Numbered from the stretch's first letter, positions 18,576 to 57,188 are shown. The stretch is 57,897 nucleotides of DNA from a virus (IMGVR_UViG_3300044640_000504:1-57897), one strand, 5' to 3'. Translations and numbers: made by a program. The notes: a model not told the origin generated them from the letters alone.

Positions 18576-18591
18576 AATTTTATTTTAATTA

Positions 18592-21381: not shown

Positions 21382-21382
21382 T

Positions 21383-25291: not shown

Positions 25292-25300
25292 TATAAATAT
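25292..25300 (-). promoter_or_regulatory. Late-promoter-like motif
   Basis: ATATTTATA on the coding strand 23 bases upstream of the ATG at 25268. It marks the start of the spike operon and overlaps the stop of the heptosyltransferase-like gene. Confidence 0.6.
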
Positions 25301-27393
25301 CAGTCTAATACCTTTTTCAACATTTTAATTACCTCTGTGTATTCTATTGATTTAGAACATTCAAATTGTCTTTCAGTACCTTTGTGGTCTGGACACCAAT
25401 TCCAATCCCCAGCGTCCAAACGATAGCGGTTAAAACAACCACTACATTTAGTTTGTGGTGCAGTTATTCTATATGTATCTAATCCAGTTTCTGCAAATCC
25501 TTCGGAGAATCCTGATATTAGTATGGTTGGTGTTTTGGTAGCCCAACTTACCCAACTCAATCCACTACCAATTCCTATGAATGCCTCACTCTTTTGTAGT
25601 TCTTCTATTACATTATCTATCGGTCCGTTTGGTAGTTGAGTAATTCCAGTTGGATGATTATTTCCCATATACCCATCACCCTCTCTACTTAAAAGAACAA
25701 CTTTATATCCTTTATTATTTAACCAATCTACTACCTTTTGCCACCCACCATCGTTGTTCCAATACTTTGATTGAGCAGTTCCGTGTATTGCAATTGCTAT
25801 TTGCTTTTCACGTTTGATTTCTGTGTTTAGTTTTAGTAAAGGTCTTACCTCTTTGTATTCTAATCCCAATATATCGGTTGCCGTTTTTTGTAAAGGATGT
25901 TGTTTGAAATCGGTTGGAACTTTTGCATTATCATATTCTGCGGATGTATCATCTTTATAGAACCAACCTATACGATACATAGCATATAAATTAGGTGCAG
26001 TTTCACCTGGCTCTATAAATTGTAATTGCGGGTATTGTTCTTTAAAAAACTGATTACTAAATGTAGATACAACTACATCACAATTCCATTTCTTACGGAA
26101 CTCTTCTGCTATTGGAAACCAAGCTAATGTATCACCCAATGATTTAGACTCTAATGCAATATAAACTCGCTTACCAGTTGCATCATAATCGTGCTCATAA
26201 ACTAATATATTATCCTTATATACTTCAATTTTCCAATTTACAAAATACTTTTTACCAGCTTTTGCCCAATGGCCATCTTTTAATTTAGTAGTAAATTCTA
26301 AACCATTTGTATCTTTGTTTATAAATTTAACTTCATATTCATCGGTTGTTGGTGATTTTACATCTAAATAAGGACCATCTACAAAATTTACCTCAAATGT
26401 AGGTTTTAATAAATTTGGTCTTTTAATTAAATTATTGTAAATCACTTTTTCTGGTTTTAATTCTTTTACTATATTTTGTAAATTTACTTTTTGATTATCA
26501 CTTATATATGTTGCTATACTATCGTAGTAATTTTCGTAAGTGTGTAGTTTTTTAAGAAAAAGGGGTAATCTATATGATAATGCTTCTTTAACTGCTAATG
26601 GGTTTAGTTCCCACTTTGATGGAAAATAAAATAAATCAGCCCCTTTGTAGAACTTTTCAGTATCACTTTGCTCTCCCCATATTATACAATTATCAGGTTT
26701 GTTTTCCATCAACGGTCCCCAATAGAATTGGAAGTTACCAGCTTGATTTCCTACAAAATGAAACTTTACTTTATAGTTTTCTTCTTCACATAACCTTGCT
26801 AACTCAAATATATCACCCTGATTTTTACCATCTGTAAATAAACCAACGTGAAGAATGTGTTTGTATTCTTTATCAAATCCTACAATTTTCTTTGCTTCAT
26901 CTTTATCACCATCCCAATACTCAATTGGATATTCCCAAATATCACAATCAATGTGAGTAAAGTATTTGGCAAATTTCTTTCTACTCCATTCACTTACTAA
27001 TACGAATTTATCAGCCGTATAAAGTAAATCTTTTGGTTCTGTGTAAGATGAGTGAGTTGTTATTACTATGTTGTAATTTCTACCATTATCAAAAATCTCA
27101 TTTAGATATTGTTTATCTACAAAGGTTTCTGGTATTTCTTGAAAGTGAATAATATGTGGTTGCTCTTTACGGATAATACCAACAACATCACTTTTATGCT
27201 CGCCAATAGTTATTACTTCACATAATTCCTTTATTTTGTTTCTTTGAACTACAAAATCCATAGATACACAATTATACTCTACAACAACTATTTCAAACTC
27301 ATCCTTAAATGTTTGGATTTGCTTTAATAGGTATTGTGGCATACCACCCGTTGAAAGGTGAGGAACTATATATAATAACTTTTTCTTATCCAT
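25300..27393 (-). CDS. GT4-type plus TibC-like heptosyltransferase fusion
   Basis: This 697-residue protein joins two glycosyltransferases. Residues 1-300 are GT4-like: YIVPHLSTGGMPQYLLKQI, THSSY, HVGLFTDGKNQG and NPLAVKEALSYRLP. Residues about 390-697 match the autotransporter O-heptosyltransferase family (TibC type): SKSLGDTLAWFPIAEEF, IAIHGTAQSKYWNNDGGWQ, FIGIGSGLSWVSW. Four Cys (650, 653, 667, 679) stand where that family binds iron, in GDWNWCPDH and RQFECSKS contexts. Known members put heptose on Ser/Thr of secreted adhesins. Here the likely substrate is the phage's own Ser/Thr-rich fibres, by inference. It is the last gene of the operon and overlaps the previous gene by 8 bases. Confidence 0.85.
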   Translation of the reverse strand: MDKKKLLYIVPHLSTGGMPQYLLKQIQTFKDEFEIVVVEYNCVSMDFVVQRNKIKELCEVITIGEHKSDVVGIIRKEQPHIIHFQEIPETFVDKQYLNEIFDNGRNYNIVITTHSSYTEPKDLLYTADKFVLVSEWSRKKFAKYFTHIDCDIWEYPIEYWDGDKDEAKKIVGFDKEYKHILHVGLFTDGKNQGDIFELARLCEEENYKVKFHFVGNQAGNFQFYWGPLMENKPDNCIIWGEQSDTEKFYKGADLFYFPSKWELNPLAVKEALSYRLPLFLKKLHTYENYYDSIATYISDNQKVNLQNIVKELKPEKVIYNNLIKRPNLLKPTFEVNFVDGPYLDVKSPTTDEYEVKFINKDTNGLEFTTKLKDGHWAKAGKKYFVNWKIEVYKDNILVYEHDYDATGKRVYIALESKSLGDTLAWFPIAEEFRKKWNCDVVVSTFSNQFFKEQYPQLQFIEPGETAPNLYAMYRIGWFYKDDTSAEYDNAKVPTDFKQHPLQKTATDILGLEYKEVRPLLKLNTEIKREKQIAIAIHGTAQSKYWNNDGGWQKVVDWLNNKGYKVVLLSREGDGYMGNNHPTGITQLPNGPIDNVIEELQKSEAFIGIGSGLSWVSWATKTPTILISGFSEGFAETGLDTYRITAPQTKCSGCFNRYRLDAGDWNWCPDHKGTERQFECSKSIEYTEVIKMLKKVLD

Positions 27394-28030
27394 TTTGTAA
27401 ATTTCGTATTACCTCATCAAAATATGGTAATTCTACTTGTATTTCATCGTTGTAATCTTTGCTAGTCAAACTCAATTCACCTAATGCTTTTAGATTATCT
27501 ATAATGTATATTGGTCTTTTGTTTTTATCTCTGTTCCACCAATACAATAAATCATCTCCAAAGAATATGCGTAATCTTTCATCTATTTTTATATAGTTTT
27601 CTTTACGAATAAACATCATACAACCAAATCCTAAATACCTACATTCCGCTTCTTTAAATTCAAATACATCTACATTTGTATTAAACTCTGTACCTAAATT
27701 TTTATTCGAATCAAACCCAATTATTCCAAAATCTAAATTGTTTATTGCTTCTAAATTGTGTTTTATTGTTTGAAAGTTTATTTCTATATCATCATTTAAT
27801 AAACAAACAATATTATTTTTAGCAAGTTCAACACCAATATTCCAAGCTTTATTTACAAATAAGTTTTCTTTTGGAATTAAAATTGTTAGTTCTGGGTCTA
27901 AATAGCAACCATGTGAATTATCAATTAAAATAAATTCAGCATTTGGAATGTTTGCTCGTTTGTAATCATCAATGATATTACATAATCGTTTTGCATCTTT
28001 CCACATTGTGGGTACTATAAAACTTATCAT
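27386..28030 (-). CDS. GT2-family glycosyltransferase
   Basis: This 214-residue GT-A fold enzyme has the family N-terminus (MISFIVPTMWKDAKRL), an FVNKAWNIGVELAKNNIVCL helix-strand and the LNDDIEIN motif where the acidic pair binds metal and sugar nucleotide. YLGFGCMMFIRKENY and FFGDDLLYWWN supply the acceptor-side and catalytic acidic residues. There is no membrane segment, so it is soluble. It overlaps both neighbours by a few bases (ATGA-type at 28027-28030), indicating translational coupling in the operon. Donor and acceptor cannot be read from the sequence. Confidence 0.8.
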   Translation of the reverse strand: MISFIVPTMWKDAKRLCNIIDDYKRANIPNAEFILIDNSHGCYLDPELTILIPKENLFVNKAWNIGVELAKNNIVCLLNDDIEINFQTIKHNLEAINNLDFGIIGFDSNKNLGTEFNTNVDVFEFKEAECRYLGFGCMMFIRKENYIKIDERLRIFFGDDLLYWWNRDKNKRPIYIIDNLKALGELSLTSKDYNDEIQVELPYFDEVIRNLQNG

Positions 28031-29850
28031 ATTTTAAATGTTTTGTTTGCGTTATTCTCATCTGCACCAATTCTTGATACAACATCTATTGGATTATTTG
28101 GATTTTCTTTATAGCAATAATCATCCAATCCCAATTCTTCAAATCGTTTAGCAATTCTTTCGTTGTAGTGATACATAATGGTTCTTACTCTTCTTTGAAT
28201 ATCTGCTCTACTTAAATCATGTGTATTTCTACCAGTTGTATTATTATAGATAAACTGAATATAACACATTCTAGGTATTCGCATCATTAGTGTTCCCAAA
28301 AATGTTCTTACTAATAATTCATAATCATCTGCAATTGCTAAATCTCTGTTATGTCCACCAATTTGGAAATAGATTTCTCTTCTCCAAGCTCTAATATGAT
28401 TTGGAACACCCACAATATGACGAATTGTTTTTGGATTTATGTTTGGTGCAATGCAAGAATCAAATTTCATCCCACCTACATTAACACTTTCATATTTACC
28501 ATAACCAAATGCAAACCCATCAGGATAGTGTAGTGAAGTCCAATTCTCATCACATTCAGCATTATCGGTATAAAAGAAACCAATTTCCGGGTGAGTTTGT
28601 GATGCGGAAAAAAGATAATCAGTACAATCAGTAGTAAGGTAGTCATCGTGGTCTAATTCTGCTAATAAATATCCTCTACATAAACTTGCGGCTCTATATT
28701 TACTTTCACCAATTATACCGCCACTCTTTTCTCTAAAATCATATACCTTAACTCTTGCATCGTTTTTAGCAATTTCTTCTGCAATTTTAAGTGTTTTACC
28801 ACCATCCGTTGAATCATTCACCAATACCCATTCCCAATTAGTATAAGTTTGGTTTTGTAAAGATTGATATGTTTTTAATAATTTTTCACCAGTATTATAT
28901 ATTGGAGTAAAATACGAAATCAATTGTGAAACATCGTTTTTTAAAATGTTTTCCATAGCACAATGATATGCATACTCACCGGTATTTCCATCAATGGCAG
29001 GAATAGTAATCCATTTATTACGAATTTGTAAGGGTTGATTTGCCAAATTAGGAAAATTTCTCCAATCGTCTGAAATGGTTACAATAGAATCTGGCTTTAA
29101 CGATGCAATTGTTTTTTCAATATCTACATCATTTTGCAATTGTAATGTAATTAAACTATCATCTTCGTAATCACCTATTTTGTACGATTTTAGTTGTACT
29201 TGTTCTCCTTTATTTATAAGTAAAACTTTTGGAACTTTTGCAGTTGGTGTAGTTTCTAACTGATTGTAATAAGAAAGTTCTTTTGGAATGTAACTAAACC
29301 ATTGTGGATTTTCTGCATAGATTTTATCTATTAAAATACCATCACCCGCGTAATCTCCTGTGAAACTATACTCATTAAATACACTATGGTGAAAAATTAG
29401 TTGGGCAATATCCACACCCTGATATTTCATATTTTCAGGTTTAGCTTCTCTTACATCTAAACCAGTAAAATCTTTACCATATACACTTTGATTTACTACA
29501 AATATTTTTTGTGTATTATTACTTGTTTCGATTGCTTTTACAACCTCTATAAAAAAATGGGGATGAACTATATTATCATCATCCACTACTACCACAAAAC
29601 CATCATCAAATGTTTTTGCTAAATCACTTATTTGTGGATATAAATAATCCGTACCATTGCCAGTTACAAAATGTAGTTGGATTTTTGGATTATTTAATCT
29701 AGCTAATAGTTCAGCTGATATATCTTTTAATCTTGTAGTATCAAATAAAATATGCCATTTAACATCTCCGTTATAATTATCAAATATAGATACTCTTACT
29801 TTATCTAAATTATTTACTCTACTGCAACGTGTTATTATGTTAAATTTCAT
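28027..29850 (-). CDS. Two-domain glycosyltransferase (two GT-A-like halves)
   Basis: This is a 607-residue protein. The N-terminal half (about 1-230) is GT-A-like with FDDGFVVVVDDDNIVHPHFF, where DDD is a metal-binding candidate, and SFTGDYAGDGILIDK. The C-terminal half (about 305-600) is a clear GT2 domain: YFTPIYNTGEKLLKTYQSLQ, NWEWVLVNDSTDGG, LLAELDHDDYLT and a late IADDYELLVRT that may hold the catalytic base. Two transferase domains in one chain suggest successive sugar additions. It shares one base with the next gene upstream. No signal or membrane segment is seen. Confidence 0.8.
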   Translation of the reverse strand: MKFNIITRCSRVNNLDKVRVSIFDNYNGDVKWHILFDTTRLKDISAELLARLNNPKIQLHFVTGNGTDYLYPQISDLAKTFDDGFVVVVDDDNIVHPHFFIEVVKAIETSNNTQKIFVVNQSVYGKDFTGLDVREAKPENMKYQGVDIAQLIFHHSVFNEYSFTGDYAGDGILIDKIYAENPQWFSYIPKELSYYNQLETTPTAKVPKVLLINKGEQVQLKSYKIGDYEDDSLITLQLQNDVDIEKTIASLKPDSIVTISDDWRNFPNLANQPLQIRNKWITIPAIDGNTGEYAYHCAMENILKNDVSQLISYFTPIYNTGEKLLKTYQSLQNQTYTNWEWVLVNDSTDGGKTLKIAEEIAKNDARVKVYDFREKSGGIIGESKYRAASLCRGYLLAELDHDDYLTTDCTDYLFSASQTHPEIGFFYTDNAECDENWTSLHYPDGFAFGYGKYESVNVGGMKFDSCIAPNINPKTIRHIVGVPNHIRAWRREIYFQIGGHNRDLAIADDYELLVRTFLGTLMMRIPRMCYIQFIYNNTTGRNTHDLSRADIQRRVRTIMYHYNERIAKRFEELGLDDYCYKENPNNPIDVVSRIGADENNANKTFKI

Positions 29851-30764
29851 TATCTTAAACTAGCTTCAAATCTGGAATTATGTTCTTCTAAATCTTTAAA
29901 ATCTTTTGTACTATCACAAAACTTACAAAAGGCTTCTCTTGGAAAAGTAAATCCATATTTACAATTTATAGCACAATTTGTTTCGTATCCACACCCGCGT
30001 ATATCTTCAACTACTTTATCAAAATTATCATCATAATGCCAATGGTCACAATGTACCATAATACCATTTTTTAACCAAGCTGATTTTAGTTGCTTACCCA
30101 ATGCTTCTGCTTGTATTTCAGCTTGTCCCCATTGTGTAGATGTTTTTAATTCTGTTGGATTTCCGCTTTCATCGTAAAATTCCTTTAATGGTAATATACC
30201 CAAATTGTAGTATGCTGAATTTTTTCGTATATGCGGATTATTGGTATAATCTCTTTCTTTTAAGAATACAAACTCATCGGTTACACTTTCTACATTTCTA
30301 TCAACAACCCAATATGCAAATCCAAATTGCCTGTTATCAATATCATGTTGATATTTTCGTAATTGTATTTGTTCAATACCGTTGGCTTCCATCATTTCTA
30401 ATGAACGATTTAACCACTCACTATCAAAACCAGCAATATTTTTGGGTAAAGTAATCCAATCTCCTTCTAAAAAAAGAGTATATTTGTAATCTCTACAATA
30501 ATGATTTAATCTATTTATACCAGCACCAACTCCCATATTGATATTGGATTGAATTGGAATAATATCTACCTTATCTTTCCATTTAGTACGAAGAGTATCA
30601 CATACATCAAATATGATTTCACTTTCACCATTTATAAAAATAAACCATTTTACAAACGGAATATTCGTATTTTCTAAAAATGTATTTATTGTAAGTTCTA
30701 ACTGCGTATCACGTTTTACACCGTTATGAGTTAAAGTTACTATACAAAAATGTAGTTTATTCAT
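29850..30764 (-). CDS. Glycosyltransferase-like protein with Cys-rich tail
   Basis: I start at the ATG at 30764 (MNKLHFCIVTLTHNG), directly after the upstream stop; an earlier ATG at 30785 would overlap that gene by 20 bases. The 304-residue protein looks like a GT2-type GT-A fold: IVTLTHNGVKRDT, NINMGVGAGINRL and TLFLEGDWITLP, where EGDW replaces the usual DxD. A HCDHWHYDDNFD segment and a C-terminal cluster of five Cys (CGYETNCAINC, FCKFC) may bind a metal. It shares its final base with the next gene. Function as a glycosyltransferase is likely but less certain than for its neighbours. Confidence 0.7.
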   Translation of the reverse strand: MNKLHFCIVTLTHNGVKRDTQLELTINTFLENTNIPFVKWFIFINGESEIIFDVCDTLRTKWKDKVDIIPIQSNINMGVGAGINRLNHYCRDYKYTLFLEGDWITLPKNIAGFDSEWLNRSLEMMEANGIEQIQLRKYQHDIDNRQFGFAYWVVDRNVESVTDEFVFLKERDYTNNPHIRKNSAYYNLGILPLKEFYDESGNPTELKTSTQWGQAEIQAEALGKQLKSAWLKNGIMVHCDHWHYDDNFDKVVEDIRGCGYETNCAINCKYGFTFPREAFCKFCDSTKDFKDLEEHNSRFEASLR

Positions 30765-30765
30765 A

Positions 30766-31350
30766 TTATTTATAAGGAGAACCACCTACCCAAAGTACTA
30801 AACTTTTACGAGTTCCTTTTGTTACAGGTGTTACTCTATGTAATAAAAATGATGGGAATAAAACTGCTACTCCTTTTTGTTTTGGCATTGTTTGAAAATC
30901 ACCATCGGACCACATTTCTAAATCACCACCTTCATACTCATTTGGGTCTGATAATTGAATTGTAATACTTATTTTTCTATGGTTTATTGAACCTGGTCCA
31001 ATATCCGTGTGCCAACCATAGTGCCCACCACCCTCATAATATTCAGTATATTGTATTGAATCTATAATAGAATGCAAGTTAAATTTCCATATTGCATTAT
31101 TTGCTTCTATTGATAAATCACGTATTCTATCATATACCCAAGCAGATTGACCATCATGATGCATCCATTTTATTTTGGATTTTCTATATTCAGTCTCATC
31201 ACCTGCAATTGTACTTGCAGTTTCAAAACTATAACATTTTTGTAAATTATGTATCCATTCTAATTCCTGCGAATTAAATGCAGAATCAAATGAATAATAA
31301 TTGGTTTGGTCTATTGTATTATCAATACCATATATTGGATATGATTCCAT
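30766..31350 (-). CDS. 2-oxoglutarate/Fe(II) oxygenase, PiuC/prolyl-hydroxylase type (copy 1)
   Basis: This 194-residue protein has the complete dioxygenase set: HTD at 114-116 and His 171 for iron, and Arg 181 for 2-oxoglutarate, in GWHTDIGPGSINHRK and LLHRVTPVTKGTRKSLVLW. The SDPNEYEGGDLEMW strand is typical of PKHD-type (PiuC/YbiX) and prolyl 4-hydroxylase-like enzymes. It is a paralogue of the next gene upstream, which lies five bases away. Hydroxylation of a protein residue is a reasonable guess, and Pro-rich collagen-like fibres are encoded nearby. Other substrates such as lipids or nucleotides are not excluded. Confidence 0.85.
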   Translation of the reverse strand: MESYPIYGIDNTIDQTNYYSFDSAFNSQELEWIHNLQKCYSFETASTIAGDETEYRKSKIKWMHHDGQSAWVYDRIRDLSIEANNAIWKFNLHSIIDSIQYTEYYEGGGHYGWHTDIGPGSINHRKISITIQLSDPNEYEGGDLEMWSDGDFQTMPKQKGVAVLFPSFLLHRVTPVTKGTRKSLVLWVGGSPYK

Positions 31351-31355
31351 ATTTT

Positions 31356-31976
31356 TTATTTAAAAGTGTTTCCACCAACCCACAATACTAAACTTTTACG
31401 AACTCCTTTAGTTACAGGTGTTATTCTGTGCATTAAATAACTTGGAAACATCACTACTGCTCCTTTTTGTTTTGGTGCTTTAATTGGTTCTTTACCACCT
31501 GCCCATATTTCTAAATCACCACCCTCGTAATCATCAGGGTCAGATAATTGAACTGTAATACTTATTTTACGATGATTTAGTGGGGCTGGTCCTACATCCA
31601 AATGCCAATCATACCCACCTCCTTCTTCACCATTATATTCCGTATATTGAATAGCATCTTTTACACATGATAAATCAAATTTCCAATAGTTAAAGTTTGC
31701 TTCTAATGCTTGTTGCATTAATTTATAATAAAGCCATTCGGTTTTATCTGCTTCAGGTGCCATCCATTTAATATTAGATTTTCTAATTGGATTTTCTTCT
31801 TTTTTACTATCATTAAATTCAATTTCACTTTGTGTAAGTGCTTCTTGAAAATCATATAATTTTGAAATGCGTAATACATTACGAATTTCTACATTACTAA
31901 AACCTTTTTCAAACCAATAATAATCTATTTGATTTAATTGATTGTTTTGTGGAAAAACTGGATAAAATTCTAACAT
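31356..31976 (-). CDS. 2-oxoglutarate/Fe(II) oxygenase, PiuC/prolyl-hydroxylase type (copy 2)
   Basis: This 206-residue paralogue of the downstream gene keeps all active-site residues: HLD at 125-127, His 183 and Arg 193, in YDWHLDVGPAPLNHRK and LMHRITPVTKGVRKSLVLW. Relative to copy 1 it has an insertion of acidic residues near 52-65. The two share the KWM...W.Y start of the fold and the I[D/K][S/D][A/S]IQYTEY segment. Having two divergent copies suggests two substrates or two positions. It follows the sulfotransferase gene by six bases in the same operon. Confidence 0.85.
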   Translation of the reverse strand: MLEFYPVFPQNNQLNQIDYYWFEKGFSNVEIRNVLRISKLYDFQEALTQSEIEFNDSKKEENPIRKSNIKWMAPEADKTEWLYYKLMQQALEANFNYWKFDLSCVKDAIQYTEYNGEEGGGYDWHLDVGPAPLNHRKISITVQLSDPDDYEGGDLEIWAGGKEPIKAPKQKGAVVMFPSYLMHRITPVTKGVRKSLVLWVGGNTFK

Positions 31977-31982
31977 AATTTA

Positions 31983-32804
31983 TTATTTTGAGTAATTGAA
32001 ATATTTATAAAACCATTGATATTTTTCATATATATAATTTGATGCATGTTCACCAATAACATCAATATAATCTTCTCTAGGTGGGGTAAAGTTTTTTCTT
32101 ATTGTATGGTCCGCATATGGTCCATATACTTGGTCATTTTCGTGTGTAATTTGTTCAATATTATTAAAATCATGTTCATAGTAAGGTAGTTCTAAATATT
32201 CATATAATTCTTCCATTGCTTCTGTTGGAAATTTACAGAAATCTTCAAACTTTATAAAATGAATATGTTTATCATTTCCATCTATAATACATTGCCATAA
32301 ATTTTCCAATGGCAAATCAAGCATTGGCTTTTGTGCCATATCATCAATTCTAGTAATAACAGAATTTCCTTTGGGGAATTTATAATCAGTTACATTAAAA
32401 TCCTTTAATGGGTTTGCTCTATATTTTTTTTCCATAGATGAAAATATACTACGCAAATCCCTAACCATAACTACTATTTTTGGATTTGGGTCATAGGCAT
32501 TAACAAAATTATATTCACCATGCCAACCTCTAAACTTATCTATTGCATATGGTTTATCTGTTAAACCGCTATAATACCCATTTATTCCATTCTTTAAAAA
32601 AGAACTGAATCCTGGTAATAATTCATCTTGATTTTGAGCTTGAAAGAGTATGTGATTTGTAAATAAATTTCTACATTCCAACATCATAGTAAACATACCA
32701 GATGTTGGAGATGGAAATATATCAGGATTTTGTCCCAACACATTTTGCAATAAAGTAGAACCACTTCTTGGAAAAGAAGCATTATAAAAAACTCTTTTTA
32801 TCAT
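31983..32804 (-). CDS. PAPS-dependent sulfotransferase
   Basis: This 273-residue protein has both PAPS-binding signatures: the 5' phosphosulfate loop SFPRSGSTLLQNVLGQNP (about 10-27) and the 3' phosphate motif VVMVRDLRSIFSSM (about 111-124, with Arg 115 and Ser 119). The layout resembles tyrosylprotein and polysaccharide sulfotransferases. It transfers sulfate from PAPS to a hydroxyl of protein or sugar. It is the first gene of the seven-gene modification operon and has a variant late-promoter motif just upstream. The acceptor is unknown; glycosylated or hydroxylated phage fibres are the suggested target. Confidence 0.85.
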   Translation of the reverse strand: MIKRVFYNASFPRSGSTLLQNVLGQNPDIFPSPTSGMFTMMLECRNLFTNHILFQAQNQDELLPGFSSFLKNGINGYYSGLTDKPYAIDKFRGWHGEYNFVNAYDPNPKIVVMVRDLRSIFSSMEKKYRANPLKDFNVTDYKFPKGNSVITRIDDMAQKPMLDLPLENLWQCIIDGNDKHIHFIKFEDFCKFPTEAMEELYEYLELPYYEHDFNNIEQITHENDQVYGPYADHTIRKNFTPPREDYIDVIGEHASNYIYEKYQWFYKYFNYSK

Positions 32805-49275: not shown

Positions 49276-50922
49276 TTAGATATTAGCCAAACCTTCAACC
49301 AATACTTTACCGTAAAATTCTGGACGAACCAATTTTTTAGCGTAACGAGTCATAACACCTCTACGTGGAGTGAAGTTATCTGGGTCGTACACCAATGGAG
49401 TCAAGATTAAAGGTACATATGGAGCATAAACCGCACCAGTCTCAAGGAAGTTATTTCCTTTGTAACCCAATAAGATTTCGTTAGAAGTCATGTAAGGGTT
49501 TTTGTAAACTGTGTAACGATTAGCCAAAGAACCAACTTGAGTTACACCAGCTGCGAATTGTTTAGCATCTTTATCAGCGTTTACAGAGAAAGCTGGGATT
49601 GATTCTAAAATAGTACAAACGTCTGGAGAAGCAACGATAAAGTTAGCTCCACCACGCATTGTCAATTGGTGAATCTTGTTAGATACTTTGTTTAATTTAG
49701 TTCCTAAAGTCTGGAACCAAGTGTTTTTAGTGTAAGCACTTGCGTTAGATGAATCTGCATCAATTGCAAATTCTGAACCATTCCACTCATTACCAATCTT
49801 TGTAGACCAGTATTCAGTAGTTAATGCGTTTCCTTTCAATAAATCCAAGATTTCCAAGTCAATCTCTAATGAGATATATTCAGATAACATAGCAGTCAAT
49901 TCAGCTTCTGCATCAATTGAGTGGTAAGCGTTCAAATCTTGTGCCAATTCTGGAGTCCAAACTGCTTTCAACTTACGAGTTTTAGCAACGATTGCCTCTG
50001 ATTTCAATTCTAAATCTACTTGAGGAATGTTCAAGTTAGTTCCACCTGATGGGTTGTTGATAGGGTCTCTATCTTCGAAATCACCACGAGATGTTGCAGT
50101 TGGCTGTACAGAATATACTAAACCAATAGTTGCAGCAGTTGAACCTGAAGCCAATACTGATGAACTTACGATTAATGATACAGTACCATTAGAAGAGTAA
50201 GTAGTCAATGCTGGGTAGTAAGTGTTGATTGAACCAGAAGTTCCACCTTGTAATGAACCAGATACATAGAATGAACGTACTGCGTTAGTGTCAGCAGATA
50301 ATGCTGCAACTGAAGCAGATGTTAAAGTAATTTTGTACAAGTTACCAGCAGCAACTGAAGCCGATAAAGATGAATCAAAATTGATGTCAGATAAAGCAGT
50401 AACTTTAGCTGCAGTAGCGAAAGATACGATAGCAGAATTATCATTTACTGAATATGCATAACGTCCTTCACCGTAAAGACCATTTTGAGCTACGTTAGTT
50501 GAACCTAACTTCGCTGCAGATGTTCCACCATATAATGATGTGCTAGATGCATCACCATATCCTTTTCCAGTTGTACCATATTTGAAATCCATGTAGAAAA
50601 TCAAACCTGATGGTAAGTTCATTGGTTGTACCGAAACAAATTCCTTTGCTGCGATTTCACCGAATATACGGCGAACCAATGGTAAAGCTACACCAGACCA
50701 TTCTTCAGAACCACCTGAAAAACCTGTCTTTGTAGTCTCATCTAATAATTGTTTTGCTTGGTTTTCTAAAATTACAGCCATTCCGTGCTCTTCAGTTGCA
50801 CCAGTTAAGCCTTCTAATAAACCAGTTTTTTCCCACTTGTTTTTCAACCCGCGAGTTTGCTCAAGCATAACCGCAGTTGGGTTTTTGCCTTCCATTAATT
50901 TGTTTAAATTAAATTGTGCCAT
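49276..50922 (-). CDS. 23: Major capsid protein (gp23 family)
   Basis: This 548-residue protein resembles T4 gp23 (521). An N-terminal propeptide has helical LNKLMEGKNP and LLEGLTGATEEHGMAVILEN parts and ends at LLDE (59-62), fitting the (L/I)xE rule of the gp21 protease, so the mature chain probably starts at Thr 63. Then comes the conserved core (ALPLVRRIFGEIAAKEFVSV then QPMNLPSGLIFYMDFKYG), DLEILDLLKGN in the middle and TRYAKKLVRPEFYGKVLV at the end. The gene follows the scaffold gene by 19 bases, has AAGGAA before its ATG and ends at a strong terminator. Confidence 0.93.
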   Translation of the reverse strand: MAQFNLNKLMEGKNPTAVMLEQTRGLKNKWEKTGLLEGLTGATEEHGMAVILENQAKQLLDETTKTGFSGGSEEWSGVALPLVRRIFGEIAAKEFVSVQPMNLPSGLIFYMDFKYGTTGKGYGDASSTSLYGGTSAAKLGSTNVAQNGLYGEGRYAYSVNDNSAIVSFATAAKVTALSDINFDSSLSASVAAGNLYKITLTSASVAALSADTNAVRSFYVSGSLQGGTSGSINTYYPALTTYSSNGTVSLIVSSSVLASGSTAATIGLVYSVQPTATSRGDFEDRDPINNPSGGTNLNIPQVDLELKSEAIVAKTRKLKAVWTPELAQDLNAYHSIDAEAELTAMLSEYISLEIDLEILDLLKGNALTTEYWSTKIGNEWNGSEFAIDADSSNASAYTKNTWFQTLGTKLNKVSNKIHQLTMRGGANFIVASPDVCTILESIPAFSVNADKDAKQFAAGVTQVGSLANRYTVYKNPYMTSNEILLGYKGNNFLETGAVYAPYVPLILTPLVYDPDNFTPRRGVMTRYAKKLVRPEFYGKVLVEGLANI

Positions 50923-50941: not shown

Positions 50942-52114
50942 TTATTTAATTAATCCTGCTAATTGTTTAAATCTATCAGAGTAAGCAGAATTTTCGCTGA
51001 TGATTTGTTTTTTTACACCTGTACTCTTTTGTGGTTTAGAAGCTCCTTCAGTAATTCTCTTTACAGATTGTACTTTCTTAACACTTCCACCCATCTTCAT
51101 AGATTCGGCGATTGTTGAGTAAACCAATTTCACTTCACGAATTGTTCCAGTTCTATCGAATGAATCAATAACTTTTGTTTTTTGTTCGTTAGTCAAATTG
51201 TATCCTCTAAATAATTTGTTAGAATATAAAAGTTTAGCGTTCAATAAGTTAATCTCATTGATTGTAGACTTCAAAGTTCTGATTACAGATATTGCTTGTC
51301 TCAATTCATTTTTCAATGATTTTGATTCTTCTACTGCTTTCTTCTCTTCTTCTTCCGCTGCTTCTTCATCTTCTAATTCTTTGATGATAGATTCGATGTT
51401 TAATTCTTCTTCACCATCTTCTTCTTCACCTTCTTCCATTTCAGGAGCTTCTTCTTCGCCGTTTTCACCTTCTAATTCAGCTATTTGCTTTCTTAATTCA
51501 GCAATTTTTTCTGCGTTAGGGTTTTCGTCTTCGTATTCACCTTCTTCCATTTCTTCTTCACCATACTCACCTTCTTCCATTTCATCTTCTCCTTCTGCGC
51601 CCAATTCGTCTTCTAATTCACGAATGATTGCTTCCAAATCTAAATCATCTTCCGATGGAGCTTCCATAGAATCATCTTCCATATCTTCACCTTCTTCCAT
51701 TTCAGCTGCATCTTCCGCTGCATCTTCCATTGAATCTTCATCTTCTTCTTCTGTGATTGATTTAGCGAAATCGTAATCTTCTAACTCATCTTCTGGCTTA
51801 CCAGAAGTTTTAGTTACGTCTGCTGCACCTAACTCATCTTCAGCTTCTGCTGAATCTAATGTTGGTTGTGCACCACCCCCAATGTTAGAAGAACTTAATT
51901 CTTCTTCCATTTTATCTTCTTCTTCCTCTTCTCCCTCATGCATTTCGTCTTCAGCTTCCATATCTTCAGCTTCTGCACGTAATTTTTGAGAAAGAATTGA
52001 CTTCAAACGAGGAGTAAATGCTTCCTCTAATTGAAGTTTTGCGTTTGCTAATGCAGTTTCTCTTACAGCTTTAGCATCGGCGATTGCTTCTTTTAACAAT
52101 TTTGAACTTGCCAT
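50942..52114 (-). CDS. 22: Prohead scaffold / core protein (gp22-like)
   Basis: This 390-residue protein is placed like T4 gp22, between the protease-linked genes and the capsid gene. The N-terminus (SSKLLKEAIADAKAVRETAL) is helical. Residues about 55-260 are extremely acidic (runs such as EEEEEDKMEEELS and DDLDLEAIIRELEDEL). The C-terminus is helical and basic (SSIIRTL-type LRQAISVIRTLKSTINEINL, then a Lys/Arg-rich end). It probably forms the core around which the head assembles and is digested by the prohead protease. It is longer than T4 gp22 (269). Confidence 0.85.
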   Translation of the reverse strand: MASSKLLKEAIADAKAVRETALANAKLQLEEAFTPRLKSILSQKLRAEAEDMEAEDEMHEGEEEEEDKMEEELSSSNIGGGAQPTLDSAEAEDELGAADVTKTSGKPEDELEDYDFAKSITEEEDEDSMEDAAEDAAEMEEGEDMEDDSMEAPSEDDLDLEAIIRELEDELGAEGEDEMEEGEYGEEEMEEGEYEDENPNAEKIAELRKQIAELEGENGEEEAPEMEEGEEEDGEEELNIESIIKELEDEEAAEEEEKKAVEESKSLKNELRQAISVIRTLKSTINEINLLNAKLLYSNKLFRGYNLTNEQKTKVIDSFDRTGTIREVKLVYSTIAESMKMGGSVKKVQSVKRITEGASKPQKSTGVKKQIISENSAYSDRFKQLAGLIK

Positions 52115-52282: not shown

Positions 52283-52525
52283 TTATTTATATAAACTACG
52301 AAATTTTTTTGGTATTTCTTTTAATTTTTTACCTCTGTAAAGGTCTTTTTGCTGAACTAATTGTTTTCTTTCAGCTTTTTCCATCATTTCTCTTTTAGTA
52401 ACGGATGGTTTTGTAAATTGTTGTCTATCTCTTAATTCTTTAACAACACCAATTGCATCAAACTTTTTCTTTAATTTCTTTAATGCTCCAGCTATATTGC
52501 CGTCTTTTACTTCAATGTTAATCAT
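52283..52525 (-). CDS. rpsU: Phage-encoded ribosomal protein bS21
   Basis: This 80-residue protein is a bS21: IEVKDGNIAGALKKLKKKFD, then VVKELRDRQQFTKPSVTKRE, closest in style to the Bacteroidota form. Host bS21 has about 64 residues; this one has a basic extension ending FRSLYK. bS21 is a loosely held small-subunit protein near the anti-Shine-Dalgarno. Where I recall Tyr 54 in Flavobacterium (KAAY context), this protein has AERK. It is embedded in the head operon, five bases after a tagged gene. It may join host ribosomes and bias translation toward phage mRNAs. Confidence 0.85.
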   Translation of the reverse strand: MINIEVKDGNIAGALKKLKKKFDAIGVVKELRDRQQFTKPSVTKREMMEKAERKQLVQQKDLYRGKKLKEIPKKFRSLYK

Positions 52526-52529
52526 AACT

Positions 52530-52892
52530 TTACTTTTGTTCTACTTTAGTATAACGTTGATTTTTATCGTTTTGTATTCTTTTCTTTGTTGATTTTACTT
52601 TATCATAAGATGGAGCACCATTGATATATCCACCAGGTAGGGATAAACCTACACCTGCACCACCAGGAAACCCATCTTCTTTAACCATAGATTCTGAACA
52701 ACCGATTGCATCATAGAACTTACTATAATCAAACTTTATTCCTTCGTCTTTAAATTGTCTTACCATATTATCAGCAATAGATTTACGATTTTCTACATCT
52801 AATACTTGATTTAGAATATCAACAATCCCATCTACCATTTGGTATTCGTTATTATCTAACTTTTCTTTTAATATGGTTTTTAACTTTATCAT
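52530..52892 (-). CDS. Putative capsid-targeted internal protein (MIKLKTILKE tag)
   Basis: This 120-residue protein begins MIKLKTILKE, a member of the tag family seen in four or five neighbouring genes. The tag fits a T4-style capsid-targeting sequence with an (L/I)xE cut site (ILKE, residues 7-10). After it comes a helical part (YQMVDGIVDILNQVLDVENR), a Gly-rich loop (GGAGVGLSLPGGY) and a basic end (KRIQNDKNQRYTKVEQK). The start overlaps the previous stop as TAATG. The body has no recognised domain. Confidence 0.65.
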   Translation of the reverse strand: MIKLKTILKEKLDNNEYQMVDGIVDILNQVLDVENRKSIADNMVRQFKDEGIKFDYSKFYDAIGCSESMVKEDGFPGGAGVGLSLPGGYINGAPSYDKVKSTKKRIQNDKNQRYTKVEQK

Positions 52893-53287
52893 TATAGTTT
52901 CTTTAATAAAGTATCCATATCAATTTCAAATGCGTAACCTGCACCACTATATCTTTTATCTGCAATAACTTTCAATCCTAATTTCTTTTCTAAACGGATT
53001 TGAACTAATGATAAGAAATCATCTTCTCCACCATTACCTAATTTAGATATTACATTTTCAATTTTTGATTTATCTTTTATAGATTTTGGAATTAAAACAA
53101 TTTTACCATTATTTGAGGATGCCATAAACTCAACACCACTTGCTTGCGCAAAATCTAACTTTGTAGTTGCTTCTTCTATTACCTCTTCTTTGACCTGTGA
53201 TTTGAATGCAGTATGGTATGGATTAGAATAAACAACTCCTTGCTCAAACTTACCATATCCTTTAACCAAATCCGTTAGCTTTATCAT
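52892..53287 (-). CDS. Putative internal protein with divergent tag
   Basis: I start at the ATG at 53287 (MIKLTDLVKGYGKF), which overlaps the previous stop by one base; an earlier start at 53302 would extend into that gene. The 131-residue protein has a variant of the tag (MIKLTDLV) without the Glu of a cleavage site. The body is mixed alpha/beta: EATTKLDFAQASGVEFMASS, IENVISKLGNGGEDDFLSLV and RYSGAGYAFEIDMDTLLKKL. The last two segments resemble small DNA- or protein-binding folds, without a firm family. Confidence 0.6.
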   Translation of the reverse strand: MIKLTDLVKGYGKFEQGVVYSNPYHTAFKSQVKEEVIEEATTKLDFAQASGVEFMASSNNGKIVLIPKSIKDKSKIENVISKLGNGGEDDFLSLVQIRLEKKLGLKVIADKRYSGAGYAFEIDMDTLLKKL

Positions 53288-53841
53288 TATCCTATATAGC
53301 AATTAAGTTCGTATCCGTTTTTCATTCCGTATACCTGAATATGTAATTGTTTGTTTGATGGTTTTCCACCTTTAGTCAATTCAACCGATACTTTATTAGT
53401 CTTTCCTTCCGATGGTTTACGAGGTCCCATTCCTATCTTTCTAAATGAGTCATCATCATCTACCATATATCCTCTCTTCAAAGCGTATTCTTTTGCAGTT
53501 TGGATTGCTTCAGTATAAGATTTGTGATATACTTTTAAATCGTTTGCTTCGTTCAAAGACTCTACTACAATTACCATTTGGTCTTTTTGTGGAATTGTAT
53601 ATTTTTTATTTCTTTTCCACGGAGTTAAAATTGCGTTACCTTCTGCATCTTTACCTACTACTTTTGATAAATACGATTGTCCGATATTTTTAAAATCATT
53701 AGCGTTCTTTCCTACCCAAACATAATCTCCGTTTTTGGCGTTTTTCTCAAAATCAGAAACATTGTTGTATTGTTTTTTGATTTTCATTTGACCATTGGAG
53801 TCAAACTTTATTTCGCTTAATAATTCTTTTAGCTTTATCAT
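53287..53841 (-). CDS. Putative capsid-targeted internal protein (MIKLKELLSE tag)
   Basis: This 184-residue protein starts MIKLKELLSE, giving an (L)xE site at LSE. The body has an SH3-like KNGDYVWVGKNANDFKNIGQ segment, AILTPWKRNKKYTIPQKDQM, and a C-terminal strand pair (KQLHIQVYGMKNGYELNCY) with a helix YTEAIQTAKEYALKRGYMVD. It starts two bases after the previous stop. If packaged and trimmed it would be an injected internal protein. The body function is unknown. Confidence 0.65.
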   Translation of the reverse strand: MIKLKELLSEIKFDSNGQMKIKKQYNNVSDFEKNAKNGDYVWVGKNANDFKNIGQSYLSKVVGKDAEGNAILTPWKRNKKYTIPQKDQMVIVVESLNEANDLKVYHKSYTEAIQTAKEYALKRGYMVDDDDSFRKIGMGPRKPSEGKTNKVSVELTKGGKPSNKQLHIQVYGMKNGYELNCYIG

Positions 53842-53842
53842 C

Positions 53843-54352
53843 TTATTTTTGTGCTCTTAAATCTGCTAAATCATCTGAACCAATATCACCATCTTTATCA
53901 ACATCTAATTTGTGTTGATTTCCAACTAACTTTTCGTTACGGATACCTAATCTTTGATTTACTTCTTCTTCACTTAATTCACTAACACCATAGTATCTAC
54001 CTATAATGTGTCCCATATCTTCGTATAGGTTTTCCATTTGTGAATGTAATGATTTTGCTTCGTTAGCAATCTTTTCGAATTGAGATGATAGTTTCCCTAG
54101 CTCATTCATATTTCGTTTGACTGTGCTCTCGTCAAAGTGATTACCAGCTTCTTTATTAGCGAACTCACTAGCTGCATCTGTGATTGCACCCAATGTTTCA
54201 GCGATTTGTGCCAAATCATTTTCATTCTTTAACTTTGGTCCAAATGAACCATAAGTAGAAATGATTTCTAAAAAGTGTCTTCTTGCTTCGTTGCTTAAAG
54301 TTTGTTTAGATGCACCCACACCTTCACCTAATAATTTCTTTAACTTTATCAT
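53843..54352 (-). CDS. Putative capsid-targeted internal protein (MIKLKKLLGE tag)
   Basis: I start at the ATG at 54352 (MIKLKKLLGEG), following the pattern of its neighbours, rather than at 54376. The 169-residue protein is mostly helical: SNEARRHFLEIISTYGSFGP, AETLGAITDAASEFANKEAG, NELGKLSSQFEKIANEAKSL. It ends with a possible EF-hand-like calcium loop (DVDKDGDIGSDDLADL). The LGE at 8-10 fits the (L/I)xE cut rule. A helical, possibly calcium-binding internal protein is suggested. Confidence 0.65.
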   Translation of the reverse strand: MIKLKKLLGEGVGASKQTLSNEARRHFLEIISTYGSFGPKLKNENDLAQIAETLGAITDAASEFANKEAGNHFDESTVKRNMNELGKLSSQFEKIANEAKSLHSQMENLYEDMGHIIGRYYGVSELSEEEVNQRLGIRNEKLVGNQHKLDVDKDGDIGSDDLADLRAQK

Positions 54353-54376
54353 ATTATTTTTTATTAAATATTTCAA

Positions 54377-54895
54377 TTACATATCTAATTTAACTTTAGA
54401 CTTAACCATATCTAAATTTTTCATAAATATTTGTACAGCTTCTCCAGCATCTTTAGTTTTTCCAAAAGATTTTATTATTTCACCTTCTTCAGTACCTAAT
54501 GTTACATAATATTTATCACCTTCTTTAGCTATACCATATTTTATAGCACCATCTTTTGTAGATAAATAATCCATTTCGCCAGCATCACTATCTTCATTAT
54601 CCATTTTAGCATAAATTTCTTTTGGAAGTGCATCCGATATATGGTTTACTTTTTTAGCTGGAGTGGATGTTGAAGTTGATTTAGGTTCTAATTTTTTTGG
54701 TTTACCAAAAATATTTCCGTTTGAAGAACTTCCAGTAGATTTTGTAGATTGCGATTTATCTTTTATAGCAGTATGTGTACCTGCTTTAATTGCAGAATCT
54801 CTATGTTCTTTTGATTTAAATACCGACGTGTTACCTGTTTTCTTATTAGTAGCAGTAAACGTTTCTTCGTTCAATAATTTCTTTAACTTTATCAT
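54377..54895 (-). CDS. Putative capsid-targeted internal protein (MIKLKKLLNE tag)
   Basis: I start at the ATG at 54895 (MIKLKKLLNEETF), five codons inside a longer frame, because it keeps the tag at the very N-terminus. The 172-residue protein has a Lys/Ser/Thr-rich disordered part (STGSSSNGNIFGKPKKLEP) and a folded C-terminal half (DYLSTKDGAIKYGIAKEGDK, KSFGKTKDAGEAVQIFMKNL). LNE at 8-10 is a candidate cut site. T4 internal proteins are likewise basic and tagged. It starts one base after the previous stop. Confidence 0.65.
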   Translation of the reverse strand: MIKLKKLLNEETFTATNKKTGNTSVFKSKEHRDSAIKAGTHTAIKDKSQSTKSTGSSSNGNIFGKPKKLEPKSTSTSTPAKKVNHISDALPKEIYAKMDNEDSDAGEMDYLSTKDGAIKYGIAKEGDKYYVTLGTEEGEIIKSFGKTKDAGEAVQIFMKNLDMVKSKVKLDM

Positions 54896-54896
54896 A

Positions 54897-55121
54897 TTAT
54901 TTTGCTTCAAATTGTTCTATAAGTTTGATTGCCATATCAATATGTTTGATAGCTTCTTTGCTATAAGGTGCAATGTTATGCTTAACCTCTTTCAATCTAT
55001 CTAATGATTTTTCACGAGTCATTGCGTGCATTGCTGCTTCTAACAAATCTCTTCTTTCTTGCTCATTAGATTTGGCTTTAATCTTATTAGAAGCCATATA
55101 TTGCGTTATATTAAATGCCAT
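54897..55121 (-). CDS. Small helical head-operon protein
   Basis: This 74-residue protein is helical and charged (NITQYMASNKIKAKSNEQER, then LLEAAMHAMTREKSLDRLKE, then KHIDMAIKLIEQFEAK). It has no tag and lies seven bases after the prohead protease gene. T4 has small core proteins (gp67, gp68) near gp21, so a prohead core role is possible, but I see no specific similarity. Confidence 0.6.
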   Translation of the reverse strand: MAFNITQYMASNKIKAKSNEQERRDLLEAAMHAMTREKSLDRLKEVKHNIAPYSKEAIKHIDMAIKLIEQFEAK

Positions 55122-55128
55122 ATTTTTA

Positions 55129-55713
55129 TTAGTTTAATTCTTCTATTATTTGTCTCATTAAATCTTGTGATTTACACCACTTTCCACACTCTTCGATTTC
55201 TCTTTTCACACTTTCGTTCATAGAAGTTGGTGATAAAAATGCACCATGTGTAGATGGATTAGATACAAAATCCCAACCAATTAGTTCAAAATCTTCTTGT
55301 ACCATTACAGTATTATCTCTCATAGGTTTAACTGAACCCATACCTCTACTGCTAATACCCAAACGGATATTGTGTTTGAATAATTCTTTTAAGATGTTAC
55401 CAGATGGAGTTGAAAGAACTTCTACTGTCCCACATAAATCACTACCATCCCACCAAATTTCTTTAATGTTATGTGATACATTCTTTAAGTTAATAACGGT
55501 TGATTCTGGATGGTCTAATTCACCCAATGCTCTACGCTCTTGTATTAGGGTTTCGTATTTCTTTGCTTCCCTCTGTAATATGTTAAGAGGATAGATACGA
55601 TGATTTTGGTTAGGAGCATCTGCTCTTTGCAAAACACCTTTAACCAAAAACTTGCCGTTTTCATCTTCTTGTAGCCTACCTTCAAAAAGGTTGTGTTCTA
55701 TTAATAATCCCAT
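55129..55713 (-). CDS. 21: Prohead core protease (gp21 family)
   Basis: This 194-residue protein fits the T4 gp21 / herpes-assemblin-like fold. It has HRIYPLNILQREAKKYETLI, GELDHPE with the likely catalytic His 68, the VSHNIKEIWWDGSDLCGTVE strand pair, and GISSRGMGSV with the likely catalytic Ser 122. A second His lies in the LFKHNIRL region. It cleaves scaffold, internal proteins and capsid propeptide after (L/I)xE. It is upstream of the tagged genes, scaffold and capsid gene, as in T4-like phages. It is close in length to T4 gp21 (212). Confidence 0.9.
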   Translation of the reverse strand: MGLLIEHNLFEGRLQEDENGKFLVKGVLQRADAPNQNHRIYPLNILQREAKKYETLIQERRALGELDHPESTVINLKNVSHNIKEIWWDGSDLCGTVEVLSTPSGNILKELFKHNIRLGISSRGMGSVKPMRDNTVMVQEDFELIGWDFVSNPSTHGAFLSPTSMNESVKREIEECGKWCKSQDLMRQIIEELN

Positions 55714-55716
55714 ATC

Positions 55717-56595
55717 TTATGCTAGTAAGTAGTAATACTCTTTAAAATGTTTGATTCGGTCAGCCAATCCAATTGTACCACCATTTACTCTTTTTGTTAT
55801 TTGTGTAACTACCGCATCGGAAGACCCACCATCAGCTAACTTATGTAATCCGTTTTTAGAGAAAAACCAAGCGGCCGAGAGTAAAGCGTACTTTGAAGCA
55901 ACCACATCTGGGTTTGCACAAACATCTTCACCGATGGACTTACCGAATGCGGTATAGTTTTCCTTTCCAGTTAATTGAATATACCCACGCCCTCTGAATT
56001 TGTAGCCCTCACGAGTTGCTTCAACTCCATTTCCCATACGTCCACCATATACTCTACTTGCAATCATCTCCGGCTTTCTTTGATATGCCGTTGCCATTGC
56101 TACCGTTGGAAAGTATTTCTTAAATATACCCATCAATCCTTTTGCAGAATAGTTTAGGTTTTCTTGTGTTGCTTTGAAACCACCACTTTCATGTCCACAT
56201 TGTGCCAAAAAGTGTGCTAATCTTAAAGGAGTGTTTATACCAAACTTCGCTGCCGTATCTGGAATCATAGCAATTACATTGGCAGGAATATGTCCTTTTA
56301 ATTTATCTAATTTTAAACCAGGAAAAGATGGTGATGCTACTACTACTGGTGCAGGTGCTACAACGGGTGCTGGAGTTGGTGTTGCTACTACTACTGGTTT
56401 AGGAACTGGGGTTAAACCCATAATCTTATTCCAAGTATTAGGTCCAACAATACCATCAGCAGTCAAACCATTTTTGGCTTGCCATGCTTTTACTGCATCT
56501 TCCGTTTTTGGTCCGAAATTACCAACTGGGTCTAGTCCCAATTTAACCTGTAATTTCTTTACATCTTCGTTATTATCACCTCTCTTCAATAACAT
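55717..56595 (-). CDS. Endolysin: peptidoglycan-binding domain plus GH19 lysozyme/chitinase-like
   Basis: I start at the ATG at 56595 (MLLKRGDNNEDVKKLQ), just after the previous stop and with AGAGAGGG upstream, giving 292 residues. Residues 1-60 are a PG_binding_1 domain (DVKKLQVKLGL, FGPKTEDAVKAWQAKNGLTA). A Pro/Val-rich linker spans 62-92. Residues about 100-292 are GH19-like: LAHFLAQCGHESGGFKA with the likely acid Glu 136, SRVYGGRMGNG and FRGRGYIQLTGKENY. It cuts the cell-wall glycan. There is no signal peptide, so release needs a holin or it acts from the virion. Confidence 0.9.
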   Translation of the reverse strand: MLLKRGDNNEDVKKLQVKLGLDPVGNFGPKTEDAVKAWQAKNGLTADGIVGPNTWNKIMGLTPVPKPVVVATPTPAPVVAPAPVVVASPSFPGLKLDKLKGHIPANVIAMIPDTAAKFGINTPLRLAHFLAQCGHESGGFKATQENLNYSAKGLMGIFKKYFPTVAMATAYQRKPEMIASRVYGGRMGNGVEATREGYKFRGRGYIQLTGKENYTAFGKSIGEDVCANPDVVASKYALLSAAWFFSKNGLHKLADGGSSDAVVTQITKRVNGGTIGLADRIKHFKEYYYLLA

Positions 56596-56597
56596 AA

Positions 56598-57188
56598 TTA
56601 ATCCCTCTCTTGTTTTGCTTTCCAAGCTGCATCTACTTTATTAAAAAATGCTTTCTTTTCATCATCACTCATAGATGGAATAGATTTACCAGCTTTATCC
56701 ATTACTTTTTGGAAAAACTTTTGGTATTCTGCTTCCTCTTGCATTACCTCTCTTACGATTGATTTTAATGCTTCTCTCTTTAATGATTTTTGCTTACCCA
56801 TAGTTTGTGGCAATCCGTTTGCTACATTTTCGATACCTTCTTTTACTACTTCTTCTTTAATTTTTTTAGATGCTAATTTAGAATCGTGTTTTGATTTATT
56901 AGATGTATATGAACCATCACCCCACCACGCTACAATTGCATCAGTATCGGCAGTTGAATGAAATCCAGAACCTGCATTAAATACATCTACAAATTGTAAT
57001 CCTTTTTTAGATTTGATTAGGTCTTTAGCAAATTGAATTGCCTGTCTTTCATTACTAAACTTTTTAGCAGCTCTTATACCATCTGAATAATGAACTTCAT
57101 ATGCTTCTTGAACTTGTGCAGTTCTTGAACCAATTGGTCCACCTAATGCTTTAAGAGTAATGATACCCGATTTTTGTAAATGTCTCAT
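56598..57188 (-). CDS. Head-operon protein of unknown function
   Basis: This 196-residue protein has an N-terminal alpha/beta part (VHYSDGIRAAKKFSNERQAI, then FAKDLIKSKKGLQFVDVF), a disordered Lys-rich linker, and a C-terminal part (SIVREVMQEEAEYQKFFQKV, then SMSDDEKKAFFNKVDAAW). The C-terminal DDEKKAFFNKVDAAW ending resembles endings I recall from proteins of T4-like marine phages near the portal and protease genes. It starts after the preceding stop by one base. The function is unknown. Confidence 0.6.
   Translation of the reverse strand: MRHLQKSGIITLKALGGPIGSRTAQVQEAYEVHYSDGIRAAKKFSNERQAIQFAKDLIKSKKGLQFVDVFNAGSGFHSTADTDAIVAWWGDGSYTSNKSKHDSKLASKKIKEEVVKEGIENVANGLPQTMGKQKSLKREALKSIVREVMQEEAEYQKFFQKVMDKAGKSIPSMSDDEKKAFFNKVDAAWKAKQERD

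Follow-up and report, generated by a model that had tools for sequence, protein, structure and literature searches.

What is the purpose of a start that is shared by five small genes in the head module of a T4-like phage, when the remaining parts of their products have nothing in common? The question is raised by an IMG/VR contig fragment of 57.9 kb (the whole stretch of 57,897 nucleotides is referred to as the window), which carries a T4-like head module on its minus strand. Since the bodies of injected phage proteins have nothing in common, it is difficult to recognise such proteins. Here, the shared start MIKLKx[LI]LxE is interpreted as a capsid targeting sequence of the T4 internal-protein type that would work like the T4 pathway of targeting and trimming by gp21. 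Judged from comparisons of sequences, this reading is given a probability of roughly 0.83.

The head module and the five MIKL-start genes

In the order of transcription, the part studied consists of a lysozyme-like gene, gp21, a 74-aa gene, the five MIKL-start genes, an S21-like gene, a gene in the gp22 position and the gene for the major capsid protein. The first of these encodes a peptidoglycan-binding and lysozyme-like protein (55717-56591) and lies directly upstream of gp21 within the head cluster; beyond it, a gene at 56598-57188 shows a long candidate leader, MRHLQKSGIITLKALGGPIGSRTAQVQE/AYEV (the slash marks the cut position here and below). The prohead protease gp21 (55129-55713, minus strand) belongs to Peptidase_S77 (PF03420, E 1.7e-27) and is 49.7% identical to gp21 of the Flavobacterium phage immuto. 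The first-pass annotation had placed the tagged genes next to this protease; they do belong to the same cluster, but an untagged gene of 74 aa (54897-55121, minus strand), which contains an internal LLE/A, intervenes. At its other end the tagged cluster is adjoined by the untagged ribosomal S21-like gene (52283-52525, minus strand; PF01165, E 9.4e-15), which takes this place in relatives too and is untagged every time. The acidic scaffold-like protein in the gp22 position (50942-52114, minus strand) starts with MASSKLLKE/A, which fits the same cut motif as the tags. The major capsid protein gp23 (49276-50922, minus strand) is 52% identical to that of immuto and has its inferred maturation site at LLDE62/T.

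The real ATG starts of the five genes lie at 54895, 54352, 53841, 53287 and 52892, all on the minus strand. The open reading frame ends at 54910 and 54376 derive from upstream TTG codons, and the tag begins at an internal ATG. The genes are packed tightly and many of them overlap. Gene 1 (54377-54895, minus strand; 172 aa, tag 54866-54895) starts with MIKLKKLLNE/ETFTATNKKTGN..., and its FTATNKKTGNTSVFKSKEHRD module directly follows the tag in the related loci L330, L347, L184 and L341. Gene 2 (53843-54352, minus strand; 169 aa, tag 54323-54352) starts with MIKLKKLLGE/GVGASK..., gene 3 (53287-53841, minus strand; 184 aa, two domains, tag 53812-53841) with MIKLKELLSE/IKF... and gene 5 (52530-52892, minus strand; 120 aa, tag 52863-52892) with MIKLKTILKE/KLDNNEYQ...; relatives of gene 5 are present in L005, L008, L009 and other loci. 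Four consecutive MIKLK genes had been reported before. All four are real and follow MIKLKx[LI]LxE, but the fifth gene, which was correctly described as starting with MIKLTDLV (gene 4, ATG at 53287, minus strand), sits between the third and the fourth of them.

Searches of Pfam and PHROGs assigned no confident family and no GmrSD-inhibitor-type match to any of the five window bodies, and no enzymatic Pfam match was obtained for these genes of 120-184 aa; weak matches (COG3_N, 0.003; phrog_14545, 0.0017) were left unused. These searches pointed to no anti-defence function of the five bodies, and we claim no counter-defence activity for them. The body of gene 2 belongs to a helical core family with an FLEIISTYG motif, which recurs lineage-wide. 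Its AlphaFold model is all-helical with a disordered tag region (pLDDT 72), and the sole match in a fold search is an uncharacterised phage protein. The gene 2 body, which occurs throughout the lineage, is more likely a head-core component.

The tag is a sharply bounded unit of ten residues

The 14-base start pattern ATGATHAARYTNAM occurs five times in the window compared to 0.36 expected occurrences, and none of 100 shuffles reaches five or more; the five MIKL starts are the only ones of at least 40 aa in the whole window. For the information content of the tag, open reading frames of relatives were chosen by MIKL at positions 1-4 only, in loci retrieved with gp21 or with body domains, one frame being kept per unrelated body (n=55); the conservation of L4 is due to this selection. 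Information amounts to 2.65, 2.42 and 2.50 bits at positions 7 (L/I), 8 (L/I/V/M) and 10 (E) and does not exceed 0.2 bits from residue 11 onward, resulting in a sharp boundary after ten residues. Glu10 is found in 44 of the 55 relatives with unrelated bodies and in four of the five window genes. At P1', T, G, K, D and N occur in the tags besides A, which is looser than in the capsid proteins.

Codons 2-4 are biased compared to the background (ATA in 45/55; AAG in 37/55 vs. 21%; TTA in 47/55 vs. 59%) and the codons at positions 8 and 10 are near the background choice. Judging from this codon usage, part of the conservation of the tag is at the DNA level. To that extent the tag resembles a conserved stretch of DNA, the probable cause being that tags are spread through copying or recombination. 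In the variants MNIKLKDLLSE and MAHIKLRDLLNE, which have residues inserted, the peptide is retained but its spacing to the ATG is not. The tag was not found printed in the literature searched, and as papers seldom print such sequences this is weak evidence of novelty. Within the window, the first four tag codons ATG ATA AAG YTA (52879-54895) are more uniform than background usage, which suggests copying of tag DNA.

Tagged genes accompany gp21, and their tags match the inferred cut site of the capsid protein

In 80 related loci fetched by gp21 the same head order was observed, and bodies appear, vanish, fuse and split while MIKLKxLLxE persists. Genes were assigned by BLAST, in place of a gp21 motif that missed most relatives. 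The regular expression for the tag matched 83 of 194 genes (43%) in the gp21-gp22 intervals vs. 9 of 475 genes (2%) upstream of gp21 (Fisher p 6e-41), and none of the S21, gp22 and gp23 genes in the relatives. Relatives of the lineage also have another class of leader, M(A)KL[VI]NLIP..., in gp21-gp22 intervals. Moreover, the association was analysed independently of gp21 by a scan of DNA for the tag alone, with a permuted peptide pattern as control. The scan returned at least 119 contig stretches, the permuted control 47 stretches in all. Among the matches listed, 118 of 136 tag matches lie where an open frame of 45 aa or more starts, compared to 8 of 47 for the control, and of 50 tag contigs, many being short fragments, 29 carry gp21, compared to 3 of 47 control contigs (p 3e-8). 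In fetched stretches that include gp21 or gp23, the nearest tag is a median of 1.2 kb away from it.

The maturation site of the capsid protein, which was inferred from homology with FLTE/A of T4 gp23, reads L[LIV]xE/[ATS] in 37 of 38 relatives and LLDE/T in the window. The tags thus end in precisely the sequence that the protease of this lineage would be expected to cut.

Putative internal cut sites and possible cargo polyproteins

A domain that comes immediately behind the tag Glu in one gene may be located inside another gene, and the residues preceding it were read at such junctions. [LIVM]xE lies within one residue of the junction in 21 of 41 non-redundant junctions, 16 of them exact, compared to a mean of 2.8 and a maximum of 9 in 2000 trials with random positions in the same proteins. 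An HMM version of the junction test mixed in off-register partial matches, and for the C-terminal YHK domain of gene 3 its place was taken by a stricter count, for which loci were fetched by the body domain itself, avoiding selection on the tag. [LIVM]xE directly precedes the YHK domain in 33 of 34 distinct internal contexts (null 3.5, maximum 10), although the contexts depend on one another to some extent and the homologous region borders on the site, so that common descent contributes to the number. Examples are ESLNE/A, ESVTE/A, NESIKE/A and KVVSE/A; P4 and P2 vary, P3 stays hydrophobic and P1 stays Glu.

Two refinements beyond the first-pass annotation result from these comparisons, a second, internal site in gene 3 and a delayed site in gene 4. 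In gene 3 the candidate gp21 site is SLNE98/A (53548/53547, minus strand), placed there by comparison of domain junctions. The second domain (KVYHKSYTEA..., 53290-53547, minus strand) is a stand-alone tagged gene elsewhere, following LLSE, LLKE or LLTE in L005, L007, L127 and L137, and the junction VVESLNE98/ANDLKVYHKSY compares with MIKLxDLLSE/ATDFKVYHKSY of the stand-alone form. A structure model predicts a coil at the domain junction, and a PDB fold search with this model returned no significant match. Gene 4 (52892-53287, minus strand; 131 aa), which reads MIKLTDLVKGYG... with the start MIKLTDLVKG, has no Glu10. Comparison of domain starts places a putative delayed site at VIEE39/ATTKLDF (53171/53170, minus strand), and the domain that follows E39 is found as a stand-alone form behind LLAE in L144 (MIKLKTLLAE/AKTKLDF) and behind LLKE in L340. 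A delayed site at E39 would explain why gene 4 is an exception.

Going by these junctions, some of the cargo look like polyproteins cut by gp21. For the lineage as a whole we lean slightly towards a delivery of cargo as polyproteins, i.e., several effector domains would be carried in one tagged chain, gp21 would separate them at [LIV]xE linkers within the prohead, and units could be fused, split and swapped with the release sites kept. To our knowledge, this idea is new.

That the tagged proteins may be packaged into the head and trimmed after the tag Glu had been proposed from the window sequence. This is strongly supported by evidence of a comparative kind, because the key positions of T4 are kept, the cut site of the capsid protein is matched, the genes cluster between gp21 and gp22, tags co-occur with gp21 and LxE recurs at internal junctions.

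A repertoire of unrelated bodies

Across the relatives, 280 distinct bodies fall into 101 single-linkage clusters, the largest of which was split into 34 subgroups, resulting in 134 representatives. The clustering bears out the earlier observation that the bodies are otherwise unrelated. Most representatives have no Pfam match; the matches obtained are to ART-PolyVal, Zeta_toxin/AAA_33, NUDIX, GNAT, Mom, NT5C, metallopeptidase, phage lysozyme and M23. A PADLOC scan of the 134 representatives, which cover two of the five window bodies, gave weak single matches only. Most bodies are accessory and show a rapid gene turnover. Some tagged bodies could be tail-associated, namely the few that are cell-wall hydrolases (tail lysozyme, peptidase M23) or that match tape-measure PHROGs. 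In Microcystis phage Mel-JY01 (L202:9389-10555), a gene between S21 and gp22 begins with MYEYVEYILE/K and looks ADP-ribosyltransferase-like by eye. The megaphage LR756508 (L204:15793-20483) carries tandem related genes near its capsid protein gene with the leaders MRLKEILLE, MRLKNVLLKE and MKLKGILKE and a YRG motif. The likeness of the genes of both phages to ADP-ribosyltransferases was seen by eye, had no supporting Pfam match and was not counted as evidence.

Proposed mechanism and alternative explanations

According to the targeting model, the first approximately eight residues of the tag would form a short amphipathic helix binding to the scaffold core, by which the tagged proteins would be built into the prohead. 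During prohead maturation gp21 would cut after [LIV]xE, usually directly behind Glu10, so that the body would be set free within the head beside the DNA, and the bodies would leave with the DNA at infection. The bodies would represent interchangeable cargo. In multi-unit genes, further [LIV]xE sites between domains would yield several cargo proteins from one polypeptide, as at E98 of gene 3, and in gene 4 gp21 would remove a longer leader, at E39. Core binding, cleavage, packaging and injection are what we infer from these patterns, and roles of the bodies in host takeover or counter-defence are speculative.

The tag might instead be a scaffold- or shell-binding helix that stays on, and the tagged proteins would then be untrimmed parts of the head core and not injected cargo. 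This would suit the lineage-wide, helical body family of gene 2, the missing Glu10 of gene 4 and the location of the tagged genes within the head cluster. We regard it as improbable, since Glu10 with a hydrophobic P3 is kept in 80% of the unrelated bodies, LxE recurs at internal junctions, where a binding helix is unneeded, and most bodies are accessory with fast turnover. The bodies that match tail lysozyme, peptidase M23 or tape-measure PHROGs point to another role, in which the tag directs assembly into the tail or baseplate or marks mixed virion proteins. The tagged genes are located between gp21 and gp22 and not among tail genes, though, the nearest tag lies at the median distance of 1.2 kb given above from gp21 or gp23 where these are in the fetched stretch, and the cut motif is that of the capsid protein, which makes such a role more improbable still.

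Least probable of all, in our view, is that the shared start acts at the level of DNA or RNA, as a signal for translation initiation or a recombination sequence (ATGATAAAGTTAAA), and encodes a functionless peptide. The biased codons 2-4 and the tight packing of the genes, which often overlap, would be in line with this. However, positions 8 and 10 keep the residue with a roughly background choice of codons, in MNIKLKDLLSE and MAHIKLRDLLNE the peptide persists although it is shifted away from the ATG, and the LxE part is found again at sites well away from start codons. A pure translation signal was rejected on the basis of the junction sites and of the information and codon data of the tag. 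A paralogous family with diverged bodies was also rejected, the bodies being without similarity.

Comparison with known systems

For T4 it was shown that the first ten residues of IPIII suffice for packaging, that suppressor genetics assigns targeting mainly to residues 4 and 7 and processing to residues 8 and 10, and that gp21 cuts after L/I-x-E (PMC9026906). The capsid targeting sequences of IPI, IPII and IPIII resemble the tag as leaders of ten residues with hydrophobic positions 4, 7 and 8 and a Glu10 with hydrophobic P3. Moreover, in both systems unrelated bodies follow one leader and a gp21-type protease is encoded in the same genome. T4 ipII and ipIII start with MKTYQEFIAE/A, whereas MIKLKxLLxE is found here, and only M1 and E10 are identical; the likeness is one of pattern, and descent from the T4 leader is not claimed. 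The site of ipI is delayed (ITE/A) and resembles the delayed site of gene 4. In contrast to T4, where the ip genes lie at 65-74 kb and gp21 at 103 kb, the tagged genes are located between gp21 and gp22, the repertoire of bodies is far larger and internal sites between cargo domains are present. We therefore class it as a variant of the T4 internal-protein system: the consensus differs, the genes lie in the head cluster, the repertoire is much larger and polyprotein cargo is likely. T4 Alt, a head-packaged and gp21-processed ADP-ribosyltransferase, has its counterpart in the tagged ART-PolyVal and other enzyme bodies of the relatives, although no ART is found among the five window genes. T4 Ip1, Ip2 and Ip3 each inhibit a distinct GmrSD type IV enzyme (PMC12373910), and this precedent is the reason for testing the window bodies for counter-defence.

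In phiKZ, SPN3US and 201phi2-1, many head proteins are cut after Glu by a gp21 relative, with long propeptides and several sites (PMC9026906, PMC10052503). Cutting after Glu by a gp21-type protease would be shared with these ejection proteins. However, their motif is S/A-x-E and their leaders are long, compared to [LIV]xE and ten residues here, where L, I, V or M occupies P3 of both tags and junctions. Polyvalent proteins, which are thought to be injected, combine several domains per polypeptide (Iyer et al. 2017, PMC5512222). The domain types ART-PolyVal and MPTase-PolyVal overlap with those of tagged relatives. Release was proposed to occur by built-in peptidase domains in polyvalent proteins, whereas it would be achieved here by the prohead protease at LxE linkers, and the window genes are small, without several disparate enzymatic domains per polypeptide.

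Lineage and use of the tag

The best matches of the capsid protein are the uncultured LR756508 (53%), Flavobacterium phage immuto (52%), Mel-JY01 (50%) and RM378 (39%). The lineage is divergent, may be Far-T4-like, near the RM378-type Bacteroidota branch of T4-like phages, and probably infects Bacteroidota. In the isolate immuto, at 52% capsid protein identity, no MIKL tags were found in the stretch read. A signal of ten residues makes it possible to search for cargo by sequence across a large environmental lineage, and about 100 body clusters were obtained from few scans. If the targeting model is true, the tag provides a catalogue, drawn from sequence alone, of proteins that T4-like phages of the environment package into their heads and probably inject. 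Factors for counter-defence and host takeover could then be sought systematically beyond the phages of E. coli, and the tag might serve as a packaging handle for Bacteroidota phages. The logic of T4 capsid targeting would then be conserved and its sequence not. Elsewhere in the window, three long tandem paralogous proteins of 763-929 aa (16284-23893) are probably tail or surface proteins, and a block of glycosyltransferase-like, 2OG-oxygenase-like and sulfotransferase-like genes, identified by eye, is located at 25300-32804.
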